Shown here: in pieces, positions 1,229-12,220 of the stretch
Numbering within the stretch: the first letter of the stretch is position 1
How the letters are laid out: every line of letters begins with the position of its first letter
Assembly (NCBI GenBank): GCA_016200915.1
Contig: JACQDV010000002.1
Coordinates: 1 to 64,000 of the forward strand
Length of the DNA: 64,000 nt
Source: Sphingobacteriales bacterium
Lineage (GTDB): Bacteria > Bacteroidota > Bacteroidia > Chitinophagales > Chitinophagaceae
Reading direction: 5' to 3'
Notes under the pieces: model-generated
The model's database searches: none
What the model was told of the DNA's origin: nothing
The model's input: only the letters and a program-made list of their open reading frames with translations
Program-made: the position numbers and the translations under genes

Positions 1229-2785
1229 TTATACGTTTTTCTTATTTGGTAAAGTTATGGTGATTGTTGTTCCCTTGCCCAATTCGCTGTCAATTTTTAC
1301 ATCGCCGTCCAGTAATTGCAGGTAGCGGCTCACAATATGTAACCCTAACCCGGTGCCCTGTATATTTTCTGCATTTCTTCCACGGAAGAAACTGCTGAAT
1401 AAATGCTGCTGGTCTTCTTTGGAAATACCTATTCCATTATCTTTTACTCCCACTTCCATATACTCATCTTTAATGCAGGCCATAACCTCAATTGCATCAT
1501 CTTCTTTTGAAAATTTAATGGCATTGCCTAACAGGTTAATCATTATATTTTTCAGCAGGCGTTTATCAGTGGTAAAACCACTGCCTTCTGAAACTTTTAA
1601 TTCTATATGCTGGCCATGTTTTAATATCGGCTTCATTTCATCCACTATATCCCGCAAAAAACCTTTGGCTTCAAAATAGGCAAAGTCTGCTGTTATCTTG
1701 CCTTCTTCTAATTTACCCAAATTCAAAAAGTCTTCAAGCAGTTCATTTAAATGTTTAACCGAATCTTTTATCTTATTGATATGTCTTTCTCTTTTATCCT
1801 GTTCATCGGTTTGGGTGTATTTTCCCAAAATAGCAGCAGAAGATAAAACCGTACTCAATGGAGTTCTGAATTCATGCGAAGCCATAGACACGAATCTTGA
1901 TTTTATCTCACTCAGTTCTTTTTCTTTTTCTAATGCCTCGCTCAGTTCCTGTTGCGAACGTTCCAGTTCCTGTAATGCTTCTTTTAAAATCAATGTTCTT
2001 TCTTCTACTTTATTCTCTAATTCAGCATTTAGTTTTTTTACATCTGATGTGATTCTTTCTAATTGTGCTTTTTGTTCCAGCAATTTTTTTTCTGATTCTT
2101 TACGTACTGTTATATCCACCAAAAAGGCAATTACATAAAACTCTTTCTTTTGCTGGTAATAACTCAAACTCACTTCCACCGGGAACTCATTACCATCTTT
2201 ACGACGGGCAAACAGGTCACGGCCATGCCCCATTTGTCTGCTTTGCGGATGTTGTTGAAAATTGTGCCGGTAATTTTCATGGTTTGGCACATAGCGTTGC
2301 GGTATCAGTTCTTCTACCTTTCTGCCAAGCAATTCTTCTTTATCATAACCAAACATTCTTTCCGCAGCCGGATTGATAAGCACAATTTCACCGGTTTTAT
2401 TGGCAAGGATAATTCCTTCGGTTGTATTATGAAAGAGAGCATTGATTTGTCTTTCTTCGGAATCCTTATCTCTTGATATTCTTTTTACAAATAGCACCAG
2501 TATAACAGCTCCGGCAATCAGGCTCATAGAAAACAAATGCTGAAACATAACCTGTGCGGGAGTAAGGTTATGGTCGAGAAAATATGTTGCAAAGACGAAA
2601 AGAAAACTTATCGCCCCGAATATATATGTATAATAATCTTCTTTAATAAAGATGGTAAGCATTACGAAAGTGAGCAGGCCACCGTCAAAAAAAGCAAAGT
2701 CGGGGAAACGAAACTCCAGCCATGCCGTAACAGCAAATACAAGCAGGCTGAAACCAAGAATATTTGCTTTCCTGAATTGATACAT
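1229..2785 (-). CDS. Membrane PAS sensor histidine kinase, FixL-like PAS
   Basis: 518 residues. Hydrophobic segments lie at about 7-22, 35-47, 53-70 and 84-101, followed by one PAS domain (about 113-230), a coiled coil (about 232-295), HisKA with H304 in SHEFRTP, and HATPase_c with N421, DNGIGIS (449-455) and GTGLGLHIV (477-485). The PAS core aligns without gaps to the heme-PAS of rhizobial FixL as I recall it: H169 (in NHENY) falls on the proximal heme histidine and R189 (in GHGRD) on the distal arginine. Many non-heme PAS domains share this general motif, so heme binding is possible, not proven. The likely partner is the REC-CRP regulator 3 nt downstream, and the pair diverges from ccoI. 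The start ATG at 2785 begins just before the first hydrophobic segment. Confidence 0.88.
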   Translation of the reverse strand: MYQFRKANILGFSLLVFAVTAWLEFRFPDFAFFDGGLLTFVMLTIFIKEDYYTYIFGAISFLFVFATYFLDHNLTPAQVMFQHLFSMSLIAGAVILVLFVKRISRDKDSEERQINALFHNTTEGIILANKTGEIVLINPAAERMFGYDKEELLGRKVEELIPQRYVPNHENYRHNFQQHPQSRQMGHGRDLFARRKDGNEFPVEVSLSYYQQKKEFYVIAFLVDITVRKESEKKLLEQKAQLERITSDVKKLNAELENKVEERTLILKEALQELERSQQELSEALEKEKELSEIKSRFVSMASHEFRTPLSTVLSSAAILGKYTQTDEQDKRERHINKIKDSVKHLNELLEDFLNLGKLEEGKITADFAYFEAKGFLRDIVDEMKPILKHGQHIELKVSEGSGFTTDKRLLKNIMINLLGNAIKFSKEDDAIEVMACIKDEYMEVGVKDNGIGISKEDQQHLFSSFFRGRNAENIQGTGLGLHIVSRYLQLLDGDVKIDSELGKGTTITITLPNKKNV

Positions 2786-2856: not shown

Positions 2857-2870
2857 TGATGCTTATCAAT
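2857..2870. promoter_or_regulatory. FNR/CRP-type operator before ccoI
   Basis: The sequence is CTGAT-GCTT-ATCAA, one base away from the classic FNR site TTGAT-N4-ATCAA, with a perfect TGAT-N4-ATCA core. It lies in the divergent gap between the kinase/regulator pair and ccoI. A TATTTTAG stretch at 2914-2921, close to the Bacteroidota -7 consensus TAnnTTTG, begins 43 bp downstream of the site and could be the ccoI promoter. The site could serve both directions. Binding by the adjacent REC-CRP regulator is inferred. Confidence 0.6.
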
Positions 2871-2932
2871 ACACCGGCTGAGAAATCTCAATATTCAGCA
2901 GGGCAGCTAAAACTATTTTAGCGGCAATTTTT

Positions 2933-5329
2933 ATGCAGACACCAGCTACGGAGAACAAATTAGTGTGCACCCACTGCGGGGAAGATTGTATCACTACCAA
3001 TATAGTTTTGGGTGATAGCCACTTCTGCTGTGAGGGTTGTAAAATGGTTTACCAGCTGATAAACCAGAATGGCCTTTGCGAATATTATAACCTCAATGAA
3101 AATCCCGGTATCAACCAGCGCATCTCTGTCCGTAAGGATAAGTTTGCTTTTTTAGATGACCGGAAGATTGAACAGCAACTCATCTCTTTTAAGGACGATA
3201 CGCAAATTCATATTAGTTTTTATTTACCGCAAATGCACTGCAGTTCCTGCCTGTATCTGCTGGAAAATTTGCATAAGCTTAATAAAGGAGTCATTGCTTC
3301 CAAAGTAAACTTTACCCGTAAAGAAGCTACTGTACGGTTTAATCATAAAGAAGTTTCACTGAGGCAGGTGGCTGAATTACTTACTGCTATCGGTTATGAA
3401 CCATACATTAGTTTAAGTGATTTGAAACAGGCAAGACCCAGCGTAAACAAAACGATGATTTATCAGTTGGGTGTAGCTGGTTTTTGCTTTGCTAATATCA
3501 TGCTGATGAGTTTCCCTGAGTATTTGGGATTAGAATCAGCAGAGAAAAGTTTGCAGGGCGTATTCCGTACCCTCAATTTTATTTTATCGCTGCCGGTATT
3601 ATTATATAGTGCATTACCGTTTTATGAATCCTCCTGGAAAAGCATCAGGCATAAATTCCTCAATATAGATGCACCAATTGCTTTAGCAGTAATTATGACT
3701 TTTATCCGCAGTGCATATGAAGTGTTAAGCGGAACAGGTGCAGGATATTTTGACAGCATGACCGGTATTGTATTCTTTATGCTGGTGGGCAGAGTGCTGC
3801 AGCAAAAAACCTATCAGCAACTTTCGTTTGAAAGAGATTACACTTCTTATTTCCCGGTAGCTGTAAGTGTGCTGAAGAATAAAGAAGAAATTCCAACTGC
3901 GCTGCCTGATATCAAACTCAACGATACTTTATTAATACACAGCGAAGAGCTGATTCCGGCCGATGGCATTCTTACTAAAGGAAAAGCTTTTATTGATTAT
4001 AGTTTTGTTACTGGTGAATCATTACCGGTGATGAAAGAAGTGGGTGAATTTATTTATGCCGGTGGCAAACAAACCGGTGGCACTATTGAATTGCTGGTGA
4101 TGAAGGAAGTGGCACAAAGCTATCTTACCCGTTTATGGAATAAAGATGATAGCAAAGCCACCAGTGAAGAAAAAAGTCATTCGTTTGTTCATGCATTAGG
4201 TAAATACTTCACCTATATTGTTTTTGCACTGGCTTTAATTGGTGCTTTGTATTGGTACTTCCACGACAGCAGTAAAGCATGGAATGTAATTACTACTGTA
4301 TTGATTGTTGCCTGCCCCTGTGCTTTATTGCTCAGTAATAGTTTTACCAATGGAAATATCTTAACCATACTGGCCCGCAACAAATTTTATTTACGTAATG
4401 CACAGGCTATTGAAGATATTGCCAATATCAATCATATCGTATTTGATAAAACAGGAACGCTGACCAATCCTCATCACCAGGATATAGTGTATGAAGGTAC
4501 ACCGCTTACCAAAGAACAGGAGCAACTCGTTAGCACTTTGGCTGCTCAATCCACTCACCCGCTAAGTAAAGCTTTAGCTGCTTATCTCCACCGTAACAAT
4601 AAATTTGAGGTAATAGGTTTTAGTGAAGTGAAAGGTGAGGGAATTGAAGGTTTTGTAAATGGTGAGTTGGTAGCATTGGGTTCTAAAAAATTCATCAAAG
4701 GAAGATTTACACAACCCGACCAGGGAACAAGAGTATATGTAGCGATAGAAAACAAGCCGTTTGGTTATTTCAGTTTTCAAAACCATTACCGGGAAACATT
4801 ACCGCAGCTGGTGCATGACCTGAGAAAACAGTATGATTTATCTGTTATCTCCGGCGACAGCAATGCTGAAAGAGAAAATCTGCAAAACCTGATGGGAATA
4901 ACCAGCACCGTATTATTTGAACAATCACCTGCTGATAAACTCATTTACATACAACGCCTGCAAAACAAAAAAGAAAAAGTAATGATGATTGGCGATGGAT
5001 TAAATGATGCCGGTGCTTTAAAACAAAGTAATGTTGGAATAGCCCTCACTGAAAACACCAATAATTTCACCCCCGCCAGTGATGCTATCCTTGAAGCCGG
5101 TCAGTTATCCAAACTTTCCAGGTTTATTCAATTATGCAAAGCCAATAAACAAATTGTAATGGCGAGTTTTATTCTTTCCATTGTATATAATGTAATTGGA
5201 TTATTCTTTGCCCTGCAGGGAGTTCTTTCTCCAATGATTGCAGCCATATTAATGCCATCCAGTTCACTCAGCATTATATTACTAACATTTGGCAGCAGCA
5301 CACTGGCCGCTAAATGGCTGAGATTATAA
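2933..5329 (+). CDS. ccoI: CcoI: copper-exporting P1B-type ATPase for cbb3 oxidase assembly
   Basis: This 798-residue P-type ATPase supplies copper for maturation of cytochrome cbb3 oxidase. The N-terminus has a cysteine-rich metal module (C12, C15, C19, C32, C33, C36) and then an HMA-like domain with MHCSSC (C103, C106). Catalytic motifs are TGES (360-363), the membrane metal site CPC (461-463), the phosphorylation loop DKTGT (505-509) and GDGLND (686-691). The extra N-terminal cysteine module is typical of CcoI/FixI rather than CopA. It is separated from ccoS-ccoNO by a repeat-filled gap and probably has its own promoter. The start ATG is the first in frame and places the cysteine motif at the usual distance. 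Confidence 0.93.
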   Translation: MQTPATENKLVCTHCGEDCITTNIVLGDSHFCCEGCKMVYQLINQNGLCEYYNLNENPGINQRISVRKDKFAFLDDRKIEQQLISFKDDTQIHISFYLPQMHCSSCLYLLENLHKLNKGVIASKVNFTRKEATVRFNHKEVSLRQVAELLTAIGYEPYISLSDLKQARPSVNKTMIYQLGVAGFCFANIMLMSFPEYLGLESAEKSLQGVFRTLNFILSLPVLLYSALPFYESSWKSIRHKFLNIDAPIALAVIMTFIRSAYEVLSGTGAGYFDSMTGIVFFMLVGRVLQQKTYQQLSFERDYTSYFPVAVSVLKNKEEIPTALPDIKLNDTLLIHSEELIPADGILTKGKAFIDYSFVTGESLPVMKEVGEFIYAGGKQTGGTIELLVMKEVAQSYLTRLWNKDDSKATSEEKSHSFVHALGKYFTYIVFALALIGALYWYFHDSSKAWNVITTVLIVACPCALLLSNSFTNGNILTILARNKFYLRNAQAIEDIANINHIVFDKTGTLTNPHHQDIVYEGTPLTKEQEQLVSTLAAQSTHPLSKALAAYLHRNNKFEVIGFSEVKGEGIEGFVNGELVALGSKKFIKGRFTQPDQGTRVYVAIENKPFGYFSFQNHYRETLPQLVHDLRKQYDLSVISGDSNAERENLQNLMGITSTVLFEQSPADKLIYIQRLQNKKEKVMMIGDGLNDAGALKQSNVGIALTENTNNFTPASDAILEAGQLSKLSRFIQLCKANKQIVMASFILSIVYNVIGLFFALQGVLSPMIAAILMPSSSLSIILLTFGSSTLAAKWLRL

Positions 5330-5350
5330 TTAATTCAGGAAATCATCAGT

Positions 5351-5509
5351 ATGTTCCGTAGGAACATCTCGTGGGTAGCATTTTTATAAAATACGTTTAC
5401 GTTCCATAGGAACGTTTGGTGCATTTACCTGATTTATCACCATGCGTTCCTACGGAACGCTCCAATTCTTCACGCCATTTTCTACCCACGAAATGTCCCG
5501 ATGGGACAT
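5351..5509. repeat. REP-like cluster of four palindromes inside a larger inverted repeat
   Basis: Four 17-bp palindromes with 7-bp arms and a 3-nt centre lie in 160 bp: 5351-5367 (ATGTTCC arms), 5399-5415 (ACGTTCC), 5444-5460 (GCGTTCC) and 5493-5509 (ATGTCCC). The outer two are each flanked by GTGGGTAG or its complement CTACCCAC, so the whole block is also a large inverted repeat. Arms differ between copies, but each change is matched on the opposite arm (TTCC/GGAA against TCCC/GGGA). This is the look of a REP/BIME element mobilised by a RAYT transposase elsewhere in the genome. No transposase is present here. Confidence 0.75.
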
Positions 5510-5536
5510 TGCAGAACTTAAAAAGAATACCTGCTT

Positions 5537-5550
5537 TTGATAAAAATCAT
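5537..5550. promoter_or_regulatory. FNR/CRP-type operator before ccoS-ccoNOQP
   Basis: The sequence is TTGAT-AAAA-ATCAT, one base from TTGAT-N4-ATCAA, with the same perfect TGAT-N4-ATCA core as the site before ccoI. A TACATTTA box at 5595-5602 (one mismatch to TAnnTTTG) starts 44 bp downstream, almost the same spacing as at ccoI (43 bp), and lies 23 nt before the ccoS start. The matched geometry supports a shared activator at both promoters. Confidence 0.6.
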
Positions 5551-5625
5551 TTTGGGCGATGAGTTCTGTCATCTAACTGTCATCTGCGTCCAAATACATT
5601 TACGCCTTTAAAAGAAAGGAGAAAA

Positions 5626-5775
5626 ATGAGTGTAATAGTTGTACTACTACTGGCCAGTATATCTGTAGCCACCCTGTTTTTAGCTGCCTTCATCTGGAGC
5701 GTAAAAAGAGGCCAGTTTGATGATAATTATTCTCCCCCCCGCAGGATTCTTTTTGATGACACACCTCCTGAGTAA
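5626..5775 (+). CDS. ccoS: CcoS: small cbb3 oxidase assembly protein
   Basis: The gene encodes 49 residues: MSVIVVLLLASISVATLFLA as a single membrane segment, then the sequence WSVKRGQFDD, which is characteristic of CcoS (membrane helix, then a G-Q-F-D/E-D motif). CcoS is needed for cofactor insertion into cbb3 oxidase. It lies between ccoI and ccoNO, as in many bacteria. A purine-rich AAAGAAAGGAG stretch precedes the ATG, one of the few Shine-Dalgarno-like sites in this window. Confidence 0.88.
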   Translation: MSVIVVLLLASISVATLFLAAFIWSVKRGQFDDNYSPPRRILFDDTPPE

Positions 5776-5838: not shown

Positions 5839-8010
5839 ATGCAATTAGAAAAATTTTATTACGACAACAAAATTGTAAGGTCATTTGCCTATGCAACTGT
5901 TCTTTGGGGTGTGGTAGGTATGATAGCCGGATTATGGGTGGCAATTCAGTTTTATGCACCCGGGGCATCGCTTAACTATGCCGGCACTACCTTTGGACGT
6001 CTTCGTCCCATCCACACCAATGCAGTGATCTTTGCATTTGTTGGTAACTGTATGTTTACCGGCGTTTATTATTCACTGCAGCGTTTGTGTAAAGCCCGTA
6101 TGTTCAGCGATCTGCTGAGCAAAATTCATTTCTGGGGCTGGCAATCTATTATTGTATTAGCGGCATTAACTCTTTTCTTTGGTATGACCACTGGCAAAGA
6201 ATATGCAGAGTTAGAATGGCCCATTGATATTTTAATCACTCTTATTTGGGTGGCATTTGGTATCAATATGTTTGGTACCATCATCAAGCGTCGTGAATCA
6301 CATATCTATGTAGCTATCTGGTTTTACATCGCTACATGGATCACCGTTGCCATGCTGCATATTGTTAACTCTTTTGAAATACCGGTGAACTTATTTAAAA
6401 GTTACAGCTGGTATGCGGGTGTACAAGATGCATTGGTACAATGGTGGTATGGTCACAATGCGGTGGCTTTCTTCTTAACTACTCCTATTTTAGGTTTGAT
6501 GTATTACTTCTTACCTAAAGCTGCTAACCGTCCTGTTTATTCATACCGTCTTTCTATCATTCACTTCTGGGCATTAATATTTTTATATATCTGGGCAGGA
6601 CCTCACCATTTATTATACACAGCGTTACCTGACTGGGCACAATCACTTGGTGTAGTATTTTCAGTTATGCTGATTGCACCAAGCTGGGGTGGTATGCTCA
6701 ATGGTTTATTCACTTTACGTGGTGCATGGGATAAAGTAAGAGAAGAACCCGTATTGAAATTTTTTGTGGTGGCAATTACCTGTTATGGTATGAGCACCTT
6801 TGAAGGCCCTTTGCTTTCTCTGAAAAATGTAAATGCTATCGCTCACTTTACTGACTGGATCATTGGTCACGTACACATTGGTGGTTTGGGATGGAATGGT
6901 TTCATGGCATTTGGTATGTTATACTACCTCATTCCAAAAATGTTTAATACACCATTGTATTCAAAAAAATTAGCTACTAATCACTTCTGGTTAGGTACCA
7001 TCGGTATCGTTTTATATGCTATCCCAATGTACTGGGCTGGTTTTACGCAAAGTTTAATGTGGAAACAGTTTACTGAAGATGGCGTCTTACAATATCCAAA
7101 TTTTTTGGAAACTGTTACACAGATCATCCCAATGTATATCACCCGTAGTATTGGTGGTGCATTATACTTAACCGGTGCTTTGTTTATGGTGTATAACCTG
7201 TACAAAACAGTTAAGCAGGGAAGTTTCATTGGTGATGAAGCGGCTGAAGCTGCTCCATTGGAAAAAGCTCACAGTCATGGTAAAGAATACTGGCACCGTG
7301 TTATTGAAAGAAAACCACTGCAAATGCTGGTAATAAGTTTAATAGTAGTAGCCATTGGTGGTTTAATTGAATTGATACCAACTTTCTTAGTGAAATCAAA
7401 TATTCCAACCATTGCATCTGTAAAACCATATACACCGCTTGAATTACAGGGTCGTGATATTTATGTCCGTGAAGGTTGTTATACCTGTCACTCACAAATG
7501 ATCCGTCCTTTCCGTGATGAAGTAGCGAGATATGGTGAATATTCCAAAGCCGGTGAATTTGTTTACGACCATCCATTCCAATGGGGAAGTAAGCGTACCG
7601 GACCAGATTTAGCAAGAGAAGGTGGTAAGAATCCTGATAGCTGGCACTTCATGCACATGTTTGATCCACGCCAGGTTTCTGATAAGAGCATCATGCCAAG
7701 ATATCCATGGTTATATCAAAATGATTTAGATATCAGCACCACTCCTGCTAAAATAAGAGCGATGCAAACATTAGGTGTTCCTTATGAAAAAGGTTACGAC
7801 CAGCTTGCCAATACAGAATTAGAAACACAGGCTAAGAAAATTGCGGATGGTTTGAAAGAAGATTCAAAAGTAAAACAACTAATGACTGTTGAAGGTATGG
7901 CTAATCCTGAGAAGAAAGAGATTGTGGCACTAATTGCTTACCTGCAACGCATTGGTAAAGACATAAAGGCCGAGCCAAAATCAACAACTGTACAGGCGTC
8001 ATTAAAATGA
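5839..8010 (+). CDS. ccoNO: CcoNO: fused cbb3 cytochrome c oxidase subunits I and II
   Basis: 723 residues. The first part (about 1-460) is a heme-copper oxidase subunit I with about a dozen membrane segments. Histidine motifs include RPIHTNAVIF, WYGHNAVAFF, the AGPHHLLY pair and GHVHIGG, which are expected to bind hemes b/b3 and CuB. After a short charged linker, the second part (about 490-723) is CcoO: one membrane anchor and a mono-heme cytochrome c domain with CYTCH at 547-551. CcoN and CcoO are separate proteins in Proteobacteria; the single-chain fusion is usual in Bacteroidota. It is the catalytic core of the high-affinity terminal oxidase that reduces oxygen under microaerobic conditions. 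The next genes are ccoQ and ccoP. Confidence 0.95.
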   Translation: MQLEKFYYDNKIVRSFAYATVLWGVVGMIAGLWVAIQFYAPGASLNYAGTTFGRLRPIHTNAVIFAFVGNCMFTGVYYSLQRLCKARMFSDLLSKIHFWGWQSIIVLAALTLFFGMTTGKEYAELEWPIDILITLIWVAFGINMFGTIIKRRESHIYVAIWFYIATWITVAMLHIVNSFEIPVNLFKSYSWYAGVQDALVQWWYGHNAVAFFLTTPILGLMYYFLPKAANRPVYSYRLSIIHFWALIFLYIWAGPHHLLYTALPDWAQSLGVVFSVMLIAPSWGGMLNGLFTLRGAWDKVREEPVLKFFVVAITCYGMSTFEGPLLSLKNVNAIAHFTDWIIGHVHIGGLGWNGFMAFGMLYYLIPKMFNTPLYSKKLATNHFWLGTIGIVLYAIPMYWAGFTQSLMWKQFTEDGVLQYPNFLETVTQIIPMYITRSIGGALYLTGALFMVYNLYKTVKQGSFIGDEAAEAAPLEKAHSHGKEYWHRVIERKPLQMLVISLIVVAIGGLIELIPTFLVKSNIPTIASVKPYTPLELQGRDIYVREGCYTCHSQMIRPFRDEVARYGEYSKAGEFVYDHPFQWGSKRTGPDLAREGGKNPDSWHFMHMFDPRQVSDKSIMPRYPWLYQNDLDISTTPAKIRAMQTLGVPYEKGYDQLANTELETQAKKIADGLKEDSKVKQLMTVEGMANPEKKEIVALIAYLQRIGKDIKAEPKSTTVQASLK

Positions 8011-8096: not shown

Positions 8097-8255
8097 ATGA
8101 AGTTCGTTCACTACCTGGAGAAGATAACCGATGTAAGCATTTACCCGGTTATATCATTCTGCATATTCGGTTTGTTTTTCCTTATTATGGCTGCTTATGT
8201 TATTAAGGCCGACAAAAAAGTTATGGAAGAAAGCAGCCGCATACCACTTGACTAA
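8097..8255 (+). CDS. ccoQ: CcoQ-like small subunit of cbb3 oxidase
   Basis: 52 residues with one membrane segment (about 17-36, YPVISFCIFGLFFLIMAAYV) followed by a charged tail (KADKKVMEESS). The size, the topology and the place between ccoNO and ccoP match subunit IV (CcoQ/FixQ), which stabilises the oxidase complex. Sequence conservation in this family is low, so the call rests mostly on position. Confidence 0.72.
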   Translation: MKFVHYLEKITDVSIYPVISFCIFGLFFLIMAAYVIKADKKVMEESSRIPLD

Positions 8256-8300
8256 CTAATAAAACTGATTGATATGTTCCGATACTTAAATACCATCAAC

Positions 8301-9473
8301 ATGAAAAAATTAAGCAGGGCAGTTATTATAATTGCCGCTATTATGGGAGCAGCTGTTCCGGCGATGGCGCAGGGACCCAAACCAGAGTCATCTTTAAACA
8401 ATCCATTAGCATTAACATTAGTGGTAATTATTGCTGCCCTGGCATTAATTATAGGATTGTTAGCAGTGGTTGTATATGGTGCTGCTGAAATAGAGTTAAA
8501 AAAACAAAAGACTTCAAAGCCTTCTGCTACAGCATTAACTATACTGGCATTATTAATAGCCACCGCTGCCGGAGCCCAGGATGCTGCTCCTGCAGCTACT
8601 GCTGCCGCCAGTGATAATGTAGGCGGGTTATCCGGCTCTACTTATTATATTTTAATGGCAGTATTGTTAGTGGAAGTAGCTGCTATCTTCTTCCTGTTAT
8701 TTCAATTACGTTTCTTATTGGGTGCAGCTAAGCCTAAGATCACTGAAGCCAGTACCAGTACAGAAGGCGCTGTTGAATATAAACCTGCTGCTCCACAATT
8801 AAGCTGGTGGGATAAATTCAATAAGTTCCGTCCGGTAGAAAAAGAAGCAGATATCGATTTAGGACATGAGTACGACGGCATCCGTGAACTGGATAACCGT
8901 TTACCACCATGGTGGCTTTATGGATTTTACATCACTATCATTTTCGCTGTTGTTTATTTCTATCGTGCAGAAGTTTCCCATGCTGCTCCGTCGAGTGCTG
9001 AAGAATACCAGGCTGCTGTAGCAAAAGCCAATGCACAACAGGAAGAAAGATTAAAAGACCAGAAGAACCGTGTGGATGAAAATACAGTGGTACTGATCAC
9101 TGATAAAGCTGAACTGGAAAAAGGTAAAACAGTATTTATGTCAACATGTACGCCTTGCCATGGTCAGCAGGCGCAGGGTATTGTTGGTCCTAACTTAACA
9201 GATGATTACTGGATACATGGTGGAAAAATCAATGATATTTTTAAAACAATTAAGTACGGTTATCCTGAAAAGAGTATGCAATCCTGGAAAGATCAGTTAA
9301 GTCCTGTACAGATTGCGGAGGTTGCCAGTTATATTAAATCATTGAGAGGAACCAATCCTCCCGGTGCTAAAGAAAAACAAGGAGAGTTATATACAGAAGA
9401 TGGTAGTAGTGCTCCAGCTGCTGACTCAACCGGTACAGCAAAAGCAGATTCTACCAAGCCGGCTGTAAAGTAG
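8301..9473 (+). CDS. ccoP: CcoP: cytochrome c subunit III of cbb3 oxidase, single heme
   Basis: 390 residues from the ATG at 8301; an in-frame ATG at 8274 would add nine residues before a clear signal sequence (MKKLSRAVIIIAAIMG ending at AMAQ), so the later start is preferred. The N-terminal third is unusual: after the signal come a hydrophobic segment, a second signal-like stretch ending in AAGAQ and another hydrophobic helix. Then comes a CcoP-like region with DNRLPPWW (typical of the FixP N-terminal domain), a further membrane helix and one cytochrome c domain with CTPCH at about 283-287. Proteobacterial CcoP carries two hemes; only one CxxCH is seen here. It accepts electrons from soluble or quinol-linked donors and passes them to CcoO. 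The tail is rich in A, D, S and T. Confidence 0.9.
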   Translation: MKKLSRAVIIIAAIMGAAVPAMAQGPKPESSLNNPLALTLVVIIAALALIIGLLAVVVYGAAEIELKKQKTSKPSATALTILALLIATAAGAQDAAPAATAAASDNVGGLSGSTYYILMAVLLVEVAAIFFLLFQLRFLLGAAKPKITEASTSTEGAVEYKPAAPQLSWWDKFNKFRPVEKEADIDLGHEYDGIRELDNRLPPWWLYGFYITIIFAVVYFYRAEVSHAAPSSAEEYQAAVAKANAQQEERLKDQKNRVDENTVVLITDKAELEKGKTVFMSTCTPCHGQQAQGIVGPNLTDDYWIHGGKINDIFKTIKYGYPEKSMQSWKDQLSPVQIAEVASYIKSLRGTNPPGAKEKQGELYTEDGSSAPAADSTGTAKADSTKPAVK

Positions 9474-9482
9474 TAAGTATTA

Positions 9483-10913
9483 ATGGAAACAACTAAAGAA
9501 ATAGTAAGAGTGAAAAAAGAAATTGACGATACCTCGTTTCGTGACCGGGTAGCAACGGTAGATGCCAAAGGGCACCGTAAATGGGTATTTGCACAAAAAC
9601 CCAAGGGCCGGTTTTACCGTGCACGTACTATTGTAAGCTGGGGATTCTTTTTACTCTTTCTCACCTTGCCTTTCATTTATGTAAAAGGAAGACCATTCTT
9701 TCTTTTTAACATACCAAAAGGTAAGTTCATTTTGTTCGGGCAAGTCTTTTGGCCGCATGATTTCTTTGTGTTTGCTATTGGTATGGTAACCTTCGTGGTA
9801 TTCATTGTGTTGTTCACGGCCGCTTTTGGGCGATTGTTCTGTGGCTGGGTTTGTCCGCAAACAAATTTTATGGAAATGGCTTTCCGTAAAATTGAATACC
9901 TGATTGATGGCGATGCGGCTTCACAGAAATTATTGAAGAATGGCCCCTGGAATGGAACTAAAATCCGCAAGCGTTTACTAAAGCATGGAGTTTTCTTTTT
10001 GCTTTCGTTCATTATTGCTAACTATTTCTTAGCCTATATCATTGGCGTAAAAGATTTGTGGAAGATTATCACTTCACCAGTAAGTGAACATTTTGGTGGT
10101 TTTGCCGCCATTACTATTTTTTCATTCGTATTCTATTCTGTATATGCCTTCTTTCGTGAACAGGCCTGTACCGTTGTTTGTCCTTACGGCAGATTGCAGG
10201 GAGTATTGCTCGACCGCAACTCCATGCTCGTTGCTTATGACTATAAACGTGGTGAACCAAGAGGTAAATATGATAAACGGGTTGAAAGAAATATTGGTGA
10301 TTGTATTGATTGCCATCAGTGTGTTAAAGTTTGTCCTACCGGAATTGATATCCGCAACGGTACACAATTAGAATGCGTAAACTGTACGGCTTGTATTGAT
10401 GCCTGTGATGCGATTATGACCAGCATCAGCAAACCCAAAGGTTTAATACGGTACGCCAGTGAAAACGGTATCGCTAATCATGAAAGTTTGCACTACACCA
10501 CCCGAATGAAGATGTACACCATTTTATTAGTGGTATTAGTGGGTATTCTTACCACACTTTTAGTTACCCGTGCAGAATTTGAAGCTACTGTTATGCGATC
10601 ACCCGGGTTACTGTACCAGGAGATGGGTAAAGACAGTGTGAGCAACCTGTACAATATCAGGATCGCTAACAAATCAGTAAAGAACATCCCAGTAAGCATT
10701 AAGCTGGAAGGTATACCCGGAAGAATACAGGTGATTGGTAATACCGGTACAGTAGATGTAAAAGAAGAAGCAGTAGGTTCAGGTTCCTTCTTTGTGATTT
10801 TACCAAAGAATGCTATCAAACAACCTAAATCAAAAATTATGTTAGGTGTATATGATAATGGCAAGAAGATAGATGAAGTGAATACTAACTTTTTAGGACC
10901 GGTGGGAGAATAA
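9483..10913 (+). CDS. ccoG: CcoG: cbb3 oxidase accessory protein with two [4Fe-4S] motifs
   Basis: 476 residues. Membrane helices lie at about 45-65, 85-110, 170-190, 205-225 and 340-360. Cysteine motifs include CGWVCPQTNFME, ACTVVCPYGRLQG and a ferredoxin-like pair, CIDCHQCVKVCPTG and CVNCTACIDACD. The C-terminal part is an immunoglobulin-like periplasmic domain. CcoG (FixG, RdxA) is thought to reduce copper during assembly of the binuclear centre. It starts 9 nt after ccoP, so it is co-transcribed. Confidence 0.93.
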   Translation: METTKEIVRVKKEIDDTSFRDRVATVDAKGHRKWVFAQKPKGRFYRARTIVSWGFFLLFLTLPFIYVKGRPFFLFNIPKGKFILFGQVFWPHDFFVFAIGMVTFVVFIVLFTAAFGRLFCGWVCPQTNFMEMAFRKIEYLIDGDAASQKLLKNGPWNGTKIRKRLLKHGVFFLLSFIIANYFLAYIIGVKDLWKIITSPVSEHFGGFAAITIFSFVFYSVYAFFREQACTVVCPYGRLQGVLLDRNSMLVAYDYKRGEPRGKYDKRVERNIGDCIDCHQCVKVCPTGIDIRNGTQLECVNCTACIDACDAIMTSISKPKGLIRYASENGIANHESLHYTTRMKMYTILLVVLVGILTTLLVTRAEFEATVMRSPGLLYQEMGKDSVSNLYNIRIANKSVKNIPVSIKLEGIPGRIQVIGNTGTVDVKEEAVGSGSFFVILPKNAIKQPKSKIMLGVYDNGKKIDEVNTNFLGPVGE

Positions 10914-11018: not shown

Positions 11019-11456
11019 ATGAATTGGGGAAACAAATTATTAGTAACCTTTATTGTATTCGGAGGTTTTATGTCATTCCTCGTTTACAAAAGTGTAAACA
11101 CCCGGTTTGAGCTTGTAACCAAAGATTACTATAAAGATGAACTGGCATACCAGCAGGTAATTGATGGAACAAAAAATGCCAATGCACTTTCAGGTAAAGT
11201 AGTTATCACAAAAAATGAAAAAAATATTGTGCTGCAATTACCTGAAGATTTAAAAGGAAAAACTATCAGTGGCAACATCTGGTTTTACAGTGCCGCTGAT
11301 GAAAATAAAGACCGCAAGTTTGAATTAAAAACAGATGCGGATGGCAAACAGCTCTTTGAAAAAAGCATGTTCTTCCCAATCAATTATAAAATAAAGATTG
11401 ACTGGAAGGCTAATAATCAACATTATTATACAGAAAAAGATTTTAGTAATAAATGA
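11019..11456 (+). CDS. fixH: FixH family protein (CcoH)
   Basis: 145 residues with one N-terminal membrane anchor (about 5-24), the sequence FELVTKDYYKDELAYQQ typical of FixH, and a beta-rich domain outside the membrane. FixH/CcoH is a membrane-anchored factor needed for stable assembly of cbb3 oxidase and is normally encoded with ccoG, as here. The ATG at 11019 follows an A/C-rich leader without a Shine-Dalgarno motif. Confidence 0.85.
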   Translation: MNWGNKLLVTFIVFGGFMSFLVYKSVNTRFELVTKDYYKDELAYQQVIDGTKNANALSGKVVITKNEKNIVLQLPEDLKGKTISGNIWFYSAADENKDRKFELKTDADGKQLFEKSMFFPINYKIKIDWKANNQHYYTEKDFSNK

Positions 11457-11512: not shown

Positions 11513-12220
11513 ATGTCAGCAACACACATTATAGCAGGTTTATCATTAGGCATCATCAGCAGTGCACACTGTATTGGTATGTGCGGACCGTTATCACTGG
11601 CGTTGCCTGTAACTAATCTTTCACCTGCTAAAAAATGGTTCGCTTTGTTCACCTATAATCTTGGAAGAGTAATTACCTACTCAGCCATGGGTTTATTATT
11701 CGGGTTGATGGGAAGAAAAATATATTTAGCAGGCTTTCAGCAAAAGTTCTCTATTGTATTAGGGGTTGCGGTTATTCTTTTAGTGATACAGTATTATGTA
11801 TTCCGTAAGAATAATCAACCGGCACTTATTAAAAATATTTATCAGCCTGTACAACGGTGGATATTTAAGTTGTGGAGCAATCCTGCTAAAGCAAATTATA
11901 TATTATTGGGTATGGCCAATGGTTTATTGCCTTGTGCTATGGTGTATATCGCTATTGCGGGTGCATTAAGTACCAGTGATGTGAGTAATGCAGTAGTATT
12001 TATGGCCATGTTTGGAGCTGGTACTTTACCGGCCATGATGGTGTTCACTTATGCTGGCTCCTTTTTAAAAGTATCAGCAAGAAACACCATTAAAAAAACA
12101 ATGCCATTCCTGTTTGCAGCAATGGCGGTGTTATTGATATTAAGAGGAATGAATTTGGGAATACCATTTATAAGCCCGATAATGGAAAGTGGGCCAAAGG
12201 AAGTAATGAGTTGTCATTAA
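11513..12220 (+). CDS. SafE-type membrane protein (sulfite exporter TauE/SafE family, COG2836)
   Basis: 235 residues and about six membrane segments. The N-terminus carries SSAHCIGMCGPLSLALP, the conserved HCxGMCGP motif of the COG2836 family; the second half repeats the fold with NGLLPCAMVY. Members of this family at the end of cco operons are thought to take part in copper handling for oxidase assembly; the exact substrate is not settled. It is the last gene of the cco cluster and overlaps by 4 nt the 3' end of a small convergent gene. Confidence 0.82.
   Translation: MSATHIIAGLSLGIISSAHCIGMCGPLSLALPVTNLSPAKKWFALFTYNLGRVITYSAMGLLFGLMGRKIYLAGFQQKFSIVLGVAVILLVIQYYVFRKNNQPALIKNIYQPVQRWIFKLWSNPAKANYILLGMANGLLPCAMVYIAIAGALSTSDVSNAVVFMAMFGAGTLPAMMVFTYAGSFLKVSARNTIKKTMPFLFAAMAVLLILRGMNLGIPFISPIMESGPKEVMSCH

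Follow-up and report, generated by a model that had tools for sequence, protein, structure and literature searches.

The window, a 64,000-nucleotide stretch from a Sphingobacteriales bacterium of the family Chitinophagaceae, carries a cbb3 oxidase (cco) gene cluster on its plus strand. The genes for a response regulator and its partner histidine kinase lie divergently from this cluster on the minus strand (Table 1). The regulator joins a receiver domain to a CRP-type output (hereafter REC-CRP). Both promoters of the cluster, those of ccoI and ccoS, contain the same paired FNR-like element, in which two TGA-N6-TCA dyads are followed at a fixed distance by a promoter-like box.

The 14-mer CTGATGCTTATCAA is located at 2856-2869 in the ccoI promoter and the 14-mer TTGATAAAAATCAT at 5537-5550 in the ccoS promoter, and each differs by one base from the FNR consensus TTGAT-N4-ATCAA. 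A preliminary description of this DNA had reported both sites and their one-base departures; its position for the first (2857-2870) was one base off, and that for the second was exact. The TAnnTTTG-like box that it placed downstream of each site lies 44 bp away in both cases. The sites are real; however, the single dyad that it took for the promoter element is the upstream half only. A second TGA-N6-TCA dyad, at class II distance, was missed; it lies exactly 22 bp downstream of the first in both promoters. The full element is thus TGA-N6-TCA-N10-TGA-N6-TCA, 34 bp long, with the TAnnTTTG-like box 23 nt later, and the core conserved across promoters is TGA-N6-TCA, looser than the TGAT-N4-ATCA named before. 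In shuffled sequences that core occurred about once per 29 kb. The window contains five cores against a shuffle mean of 2.21 (7 of 100 shuffles reached five), and the genome contains 176 against 45 for the reversed control pattern. Because the single core is this frequent, it is weak evidence, and counting such cores was dropped as an argument. In contrast, perfect tandems occurred nine times in the 4.5-Mb genome (control, one), which is strong evidence, and two of the nine are these cco promoters.

We take the TAnnTTTG-like box to be the -7 promoter element of the Bacteroidota type. If it is, the centre of dyad 2 would fall at about -40 to -41 and that of dyad 1 at about -62 to -63, a class II position plus an upstream dimer on the same helix face. 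A regular -33 TTTG element was not seen, as TTTG occurred within 15 nt past dyad 2 in only 18 of 116 promoters; this is as expected for activator-dependent promoters. The ccoI start codon follows the box by 11 nt (2914-2933), so that the ccoI transcript would be nearly leaderless, and comparably short leaders were found in relatives.

Table 1. Features of the cco locus and its divergent regulatory genes (HTH, helix-turn-helix; cNMP, cyclic nucleotide monophosphate; ORF, open reading frame).
Feature	Position	Strand	Evidence or remark
REC-CRP response regulator (receiver, cNMP-binding fold and Crp HTH), 352 aa	167..1225	-	Pfam Response_reg, cNMP_binding, HTH_Crp_2
Partner histidine kinase, PAS-HisKA-HATPase	1229..2785	-	Pfam; PAS resembles DosP/FixL heme-PAS sensors (H169, R189)
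Upstream dyad, ccoI promoter, TGATGCTTATCA	2857..2868	+	
Downstream dyad, ccoI promoter, TGAGAAATCTCA	2879..2890	+	Start-to-start distance from upstream dyad 22 bp
-7-like box, ccoI promoter, TATTTTAG	2914..2921	+	23 nt past downstream dyad
ccoI-like copper P-type ATPase	2933..5329	+	Pfam ATPase-cat_bd, E1-E2_ATPase
Upstream dyad, ccoS promoter, TGATAAAAATCA	5538..5549	+	
Downstream dyad, ccoS promoter, TGAGTTCTGTCA	5560..5571	+	
-7-like box, ccoS promoter, TACATTTA	5595..5602	+	23 nt past downstream dyad
ccoS (FixS)	5626..5775	+	Pfam FixS 5.9e-19
Fused ccoN-ccoO, cbb3 oxidase	5839..8010	+	Pfam COX1 and FixO; NCBIfam PRK14485 above cut-off
ccoQ-like short protein	8097..8255	+	Position; no Pfam match; homologues at same place in relatives
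ccoP	8274..9473	+	Pfam FixP_N, Cytochrome_CBB3
ccoG	9483..10913	+	Pfam Fer4_18, FixG_C
ccoH-like ORF	11019..11456	+	Named by position only; homologues at same place in relatives
DsbD_2-type membrane protein of cco cluster	11513..12220	+	Pfam DsbD_2

Between the ccoI gene and the ccoS promoter, at 5353-5520, there are REP-like palindromes, namely GTTCCTACGGAAC three times with up to one mismatch and, by eye, GTCCCGATGGGAC; a locus of a relative (L058) has other palindromes at the equivalent place.

REC-CRPs with an identity of 64% or more (22 genomes) were termed cco-type and the others paralogues, a split chosen after seeing the data. Conservation of the element was scored in 28 promoters (15 of ccoI and 13 of ccoS) from the window and the 14 cco-type loci holding ccoI. 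Two of these, L065 and L069, contributed no ccoS promoter, and seven further cco-type loci with no ccoI in the fetched stretch were left out. All 12 fixed bases of the tandem matched in 22 promoters and 11 in the other six, and TAnnTT followed dyad 2 at exactly 23 nt in 27 of the 28 and one base later in the remaining one. Random 170-bp stretches of the same loci usually gave a best match of 7-8; a full score of 12 came up in 40 of the 2800 draws, some of them no doubt at the real sites. In 61 stretches (the window and regulator neighbourhoods, 1.07 Mb), 75 dyad pairs were found at 22 bp against a mean of 0.85 at other distances, and five other inner dyad spacings tried there gave no peak. Counted on both sides of these 75 tandems, TAnnTT stood at an offset of 23 in 57 cases and at any other offset in at most 7. 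Among 99 genomes, own genome included, the directional pattern had 234 matches spread over 60 genomes, and its control had none.

The preliminary description had proposed a search of relatives with the same gene order, and the sites do persist there, hold-out loci included. For the hold-out, scanning the contigs of named genomes yielded 80 loci, 26 of which were scored, the rest having no usable ccoI start; three repeated earlier promoters, leaving 23 new ones. The tandem was complete (12/12 bases) in 19 of the 23, and 13 of these 19 also had TAnnTT at +23. Where the identity of the regulator was at least 60%, all 12 promoters had the full tandem and 10 had the box. Named carriers of the tandem include Longitalea luteola, Niastella sp. 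OAS944, and Chitinophaga rupis DSM 21039.

The number of tandems varied with the presence of a REC-CRP. The 99 genomes contained 430 tandems (controls, 13), with a mean of 6.17 in genomes encoding a REC-CRP (n=64) and 1.00 in those without one (n=35; p=3e-10; per Mb, p=4e-8). The difference recurred in 63 fresh genomes of the family, order and class, drawn from 296 scanned (3.06, n=34, versus 0.55, n=29; p=7e-5). Genomes of other classes of the phylum were omitted; they mostly had 0-3 tandems, and one of them (G361), matched on the CRP part alone, has seven. In one genus, picked after seeing the data for containing both kinds, all four genomes with a REC-CRP had 2-4 tandems and all 13 without one had 0-1. 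Genomes with both REC-CRP types averaged 9.00 tandems (n=9), those with the cco-type alone 7.15 (n=13), and those with a paralogue alone 4.41 (n=29). These results support a role of the sites as promoter elements linked to the REC-CRP protein. The computed observations are the tandem with its rigid spacing and conservation, this co-occurrence, and the conserved residues described below. The richest genome (G037, locus L075) has 29 tandems, one of which lies upstream of the kinase gene itself.

The regulator has the build of a response regulator with a CRP output, matching the Pfam receiver, cNMP-binding and Crp HTH families. Its receiver residue D52 is kept in 61 aligned REC-CRPs, the window included, as are E317 and R321, which the preliminary description had placed correctly and which we take to be recognition-helix residues as in FNR. 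The CRP parts of the 61 proteins formed one branch (99/100), the bootstrap being not fully settled. The only cysteine, C51, adjoins the receiver aspartate, and the FNR-type cysteine cluster is absent. Having a receiver domain and only one cysteine, the regulator is without a direct iron-sulfur sensor. Its NCBIfam FixK match reached 67.9 bits, far under the 300-bit cut-off. At what we take to be the cAMP-binding Arg-Ser position of CRP, the regulator looks by eye to have D-T.

A search of the PDB with the PAS stretch of the kinase returned the heme oxygen sensors DosP and FixL as the 13 best of 18 rows. H169 and R189 face a His and an Arg in the DosP alignments; presumably, H169 is the heme ligand and R189 the distal O2 contact. 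Both residues of a FixL-type PAS domain, the heme-ligand His and the distal Arg, were found in 19 of 19 kinases of cco-type loci. In kinases of paralogue loci (L035-L094), the His was kept in 34 of 36, and the second position held Arg in 12 and Met in 14, the latter possibly reflecting a different ligand. As a whole protein, the window kinase scored 99.2 bits (best stretch, residues 90-245) against the FixL family NF041777, whose cut-off is 850. In its own genome, this PAS type occurred only in the two REC-CRP partner kinases (E<=1e-6). The PAS domain of the kinase, to judge from these residues, probably carries heme as FixL does. The preliminary description had not noted the heme-PAS character of the kinase. 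The kinase gene is at the far end of the cco cluster in several cco-type loci, and no kinase was found in the fetched stretch of four (L036, L065, L069, and L072).

Seven of the nine tandems in the genome lie outside the two cco promoters, so that, contrary to the earlier suggestion, the regulon is not self-contained. One is located at C23:2258, with the box, about 5 kb from a second REC-CRP (G000:C23:7329-8372, L035) that has its own kinase and a recognition stretch, GTATESLIRTLSDF, identical to that of the window regulator. Another occupies a divergent promoter that separates an Rrf2-like regulator from a lipoprotein and a nosZ-like gene. A further one (G000:C25:47232-47265, L111) stands between hemA/hemC-like and hemH/hemJ-like genes, and the neighbours of the remaining ones include a baeRF-like and a DoxX-like gene (all names by eye). 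TAnnTT was present at +23 on at least one side in six of the nine. The tandem at G000:C20:8596-8629 (L110) has a -7-like box at +23 on both sides and is perhaps one element serving two divergent promoters. For the window and the sampled relatives, the longest ORF starting within 320 nt was taken as the downstream protein, so that ccoNO represents ccoS; 109 of 114 references were used, four same-genus copies and one repeat being omitted. The 25 of 75 Pfam families listed included COX1/FixO (18 proteins), ccoI-type ATPase (14), cytochrome c (7), Rrf2 (5), baeRF family 3 (5), Pyridox_ox_2 (4), Usp (3), and radical SAM (2, HemN-like by eye). Many of the sampled stretches surround the regulator, which biases the counts towards cco.

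Where tandems occur without a REC-CRP, the genome often has a gene for a free-standing CRP protein (14 genomes viewed). This protein carries a CX2C motif near its N-terminus, along with other cysteines, and its recognition helix is nearly the same as that of the REC-CRPs. At a limit of E<1e-50, set after seeing the list, this FNR-like protein was found in 29 of the 99 genomes; when these 29 were aligned together with one weaker match, CX2C was kept in 28 of the 30 rows, and the other cysteines vary. None of the 22 genomes with a cco-type REC-CRP encoded the FNR-like protein, and 48 genomes had neither (Fisher p=0.0003). The same avoidance was seen inside the family (none with both, 22 and 13 with one of the two, 25 with neither; p=0.001). 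In contrast, paralogous REC-CRPs showed no avoidance (13 genomes with both; p=0.51). Since the cco-type REC-CRPs form one branch (100/99), which includes one long-branched paralogue row, a small number of events may account for the avoidance. In G008, the place that the kinase/regulator pair has in the window is taken by the FNR-like gene, which ends immediately ahead of the ccoI tandem. Among genomes without a REC-CRP, those with the FNR-like protein averaged 1.56 tandems (n=16) and those with neither protein 0.53 (n=19; p=0.01). The former were rejected as equal users of the tandem, their use being weaker. The kinase/regulator pair of this lineage thus seems to occupy the position that elsewhere in the family belongs to an FNR-like regulator with N-terminal cysteines.

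We consider it likely, on the strength of sequence, that the two cco promoters are activator-dependent promoters of the adjacent REC-CRP, driven by the heme-PAS kinase. At low oxygen, the kinase, probably heme-bearing like FixL, would transfer phosphate to D52 of its partner. Each of the two TGA-N6-TCA dyads, which are separated by two turns of the helix, would then be bound by one regulator dimer. The dimer on the downstream dyad would lie beside RNA polymerase in a class II position (about -41), and the other would lie at about -63. The ccoI gene and the ccoS-NOQP unit would thereby be switched on, along with some of the seven other tandem loci, whose neighbours include nos-like, heme and stress genes. 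The steps that we infer are binding and phosphorylation, the presence of heme, the role of oxygen as the signal, and the direction of regulation.

Several results weigh against this interpretation. The tests of tandem number count genomes as independent, with no phylogenetic correction. Of the 64 relatives with a REC-CRP, 11 have no tandem or one, and in family f25 the tandem is missing from 10 of 15 such genomes. Conversely, 8 of the 35 genomes without a REC-CRP carry 2-4 tandems, and six of these eight encode FNR-like proteins; the tandem is therefore not confined to genomes with a REC-CRP. The four misses among the 23 hold-out promoters (L363, L380, L382, and L387) all have regulators below 60% identity. 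Paralogue-type loci with ccoI or ccoS, scored separately, had the tandem at none of four ccoI promoters (one ccoI start lying outside the stretch) and at three of four ccoS promoters; outside the cco-type set the tandem is therefore less regular, above all at ccoI. Three of the nine tandems of the genome (C25, C40, and C75) lack TAnnTT at +23 on both sides and perhaps do not belong to such promoters. The case for heme draws on two residues and PAS similarity. Finally, the genome encodes 11 cNMP-binding proteins, including the second REC-CRP and a CRP protein with four cysteines (4-Cys, G000:C54:264282).

Two of these proteins bear on who reads the sites. It is possible, and compatible with control by the adjacent pair, that the sites serve both REC-CRP paralogues, which would integrate two signals through them, a view we hold tentatively. 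Their common recognition stretch favours it, as do the genomes with both types having the highest mean number of tandems. The partner kinases of the paralogues, many with Met for the FixL-like Arg that is constant in the cco-type set, may sense something else. However, 13 of the 22 cco-type genomes have no paralogue at the limit used, indicating that the paralogue is not needed for the sites. It is unlikely that another CRP/FNR-type protein, such as the 4-Cys protein or the second REC-CRP, is the main reader of the sites and that the adjacent pair serves something else. The number of cNMP-binding proteins leaves room for this, the 4-Cys protein has a cysteine-rich N-terminus and, by eye, E and R in its recognition helix, and the second REC-CRP has the same recognition stretch and a tandem nearby. 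Genomes with the 4-Cys family also average 6.26 tandems versus 3.89 without it, but this difference is not significant (p=0.21). In G002, a genome of the same genus rated 100% complete, nine tandems match all nine of the window genome by eye, yet it has only one REC-CRP at the limit used and no 4-Cys (NC4) protein at 1e-40. The 4-Cys protein as a required regulator was rejected for the genus, being absent at 1e-40 from G002 and from G001 (only 81% complete). Genomes with the cco-type REC-CRP alone, moreover, have the high mean given above. Chance matches of a common 8-base pattern, for which the shuffle counts in the window leave some room, are ruled out for practical purposes by control patterns near zero and by the constant placing of tandem and box in those relatives sampled that share the gene order.

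Beyond control of cco by the adjacent pair, a wider proposal has, in our judgement, about an even chance of being correct. In part of the Chitinophagaceae, a heme-PAS kinase and an FNR-like activator fused to a receiver would have taken over from iron-sulfur sensing by FNR, acting on the same promoter family; one protein would combine the roles of FixJ and FixK, and two dimers would be locked 22 bp apart, 23 nt from a Bacteroidota -7 box. If the cco promoters do answer to the pair, the usual oxygen-sensing iron-sulfur protein is not needed at them. The system would then be a case, outside Alphaproteobacteria, of apparent interchange between FNR and a kinase-driven regulator. The regulator and kinase are concrete candidates for low-oxygen control, and any genome of the group can be screened for the 34-bp element with its box.

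Low-oxygen sensing and the switch-on of cbb3 seem to be little described in Bacteroidota. An open-access search, with subscription papers mostly outside its reach, recognised no literature on this regulator or element and returned no paper on REC-CRP or FNR in the phylum. CRP homologues in metagenome-assembled genomes of Flavobacteriales and Saprospiraceae are predicted to be MalR-like in a paper whose main text contains neither 'TTGA' nor 'tandem' (PMC8510549). In Flavobacterium psychrophilum, cbb3 and heme synthesis are up-regulated, cbb3 under oxygen limitation, according to a report whose main text contains no 'crp' or 'fnr' (PMC9723704).

Among known systems, DosP and FixL are the nearest solved relatives of the PAS domain by sequence, its His and Arg columns aligning with DosP; the other domains of the kinase and its REC-CRP partner are different, and heme is predicted here. 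FNR shares the site core and similar kinds of targets (cbb3, HemN-like radical SAM, and stress genes), and low-oxygen genes of the window do have an FNR-type site upstream, with one mismatch in each upstream dyad. However, FNR is a [4Fe-4S] sensor, whereas the window regulator has a receiver domain and a single cysteine. FixJ is a receiver joined to a LuxR-type HTH, whereas the output domain here is of the Crp type, and FixK stands alone without a receiver. By its sequence, the window regulator is therefore a member neither of FNR, whose cysteines are absent, nor of FixJ, whose output differs.

The FixL-FixJ-FixK cascade of Alphaproteobacteria is similar in having a heme-PAS kinase above a CRP/FNR-family output without iron-sulfur cysteines, in having cbb3 (cco/fixNOQP) and hemN among its targets, and in boxes very similar to those of FnrN. 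In contrast, FixJ activates a separate gene, fixK, whereas here a single protein combines the receiver with the CRP output and could act directly on the cco promoters. The sites here are in tandem at a fixed 22 bp, and the promoter box is presumably of the Bacteroidota type. In Alphaproteobacteria, the sites recognised by FnrN closely resemble those of FixK, and Caulobacterales are inferred to have lost FnrN, with FixLJ and FixK taking its place (PMC4999443). The hFixL-FxkR-FixKf system of Rhizobium is another rewiring, from an oxygen kinase to a FixK-type activator and fixNOQP (PMC7888657). Candidate FxkR sites are predicted there before fxkR and the cco operon, so that a direct response-regulator route to cco has been proposed for that system as well; these sites are of the type GTTACA-N4-GTTACA (PMC4999443). 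FxkR, however, is a separate response regulator and not a receiver-CRP fusion reading FNR-like dyads. The system of the window looks like a shorter circuit, in which receiver and CRP output are fused.

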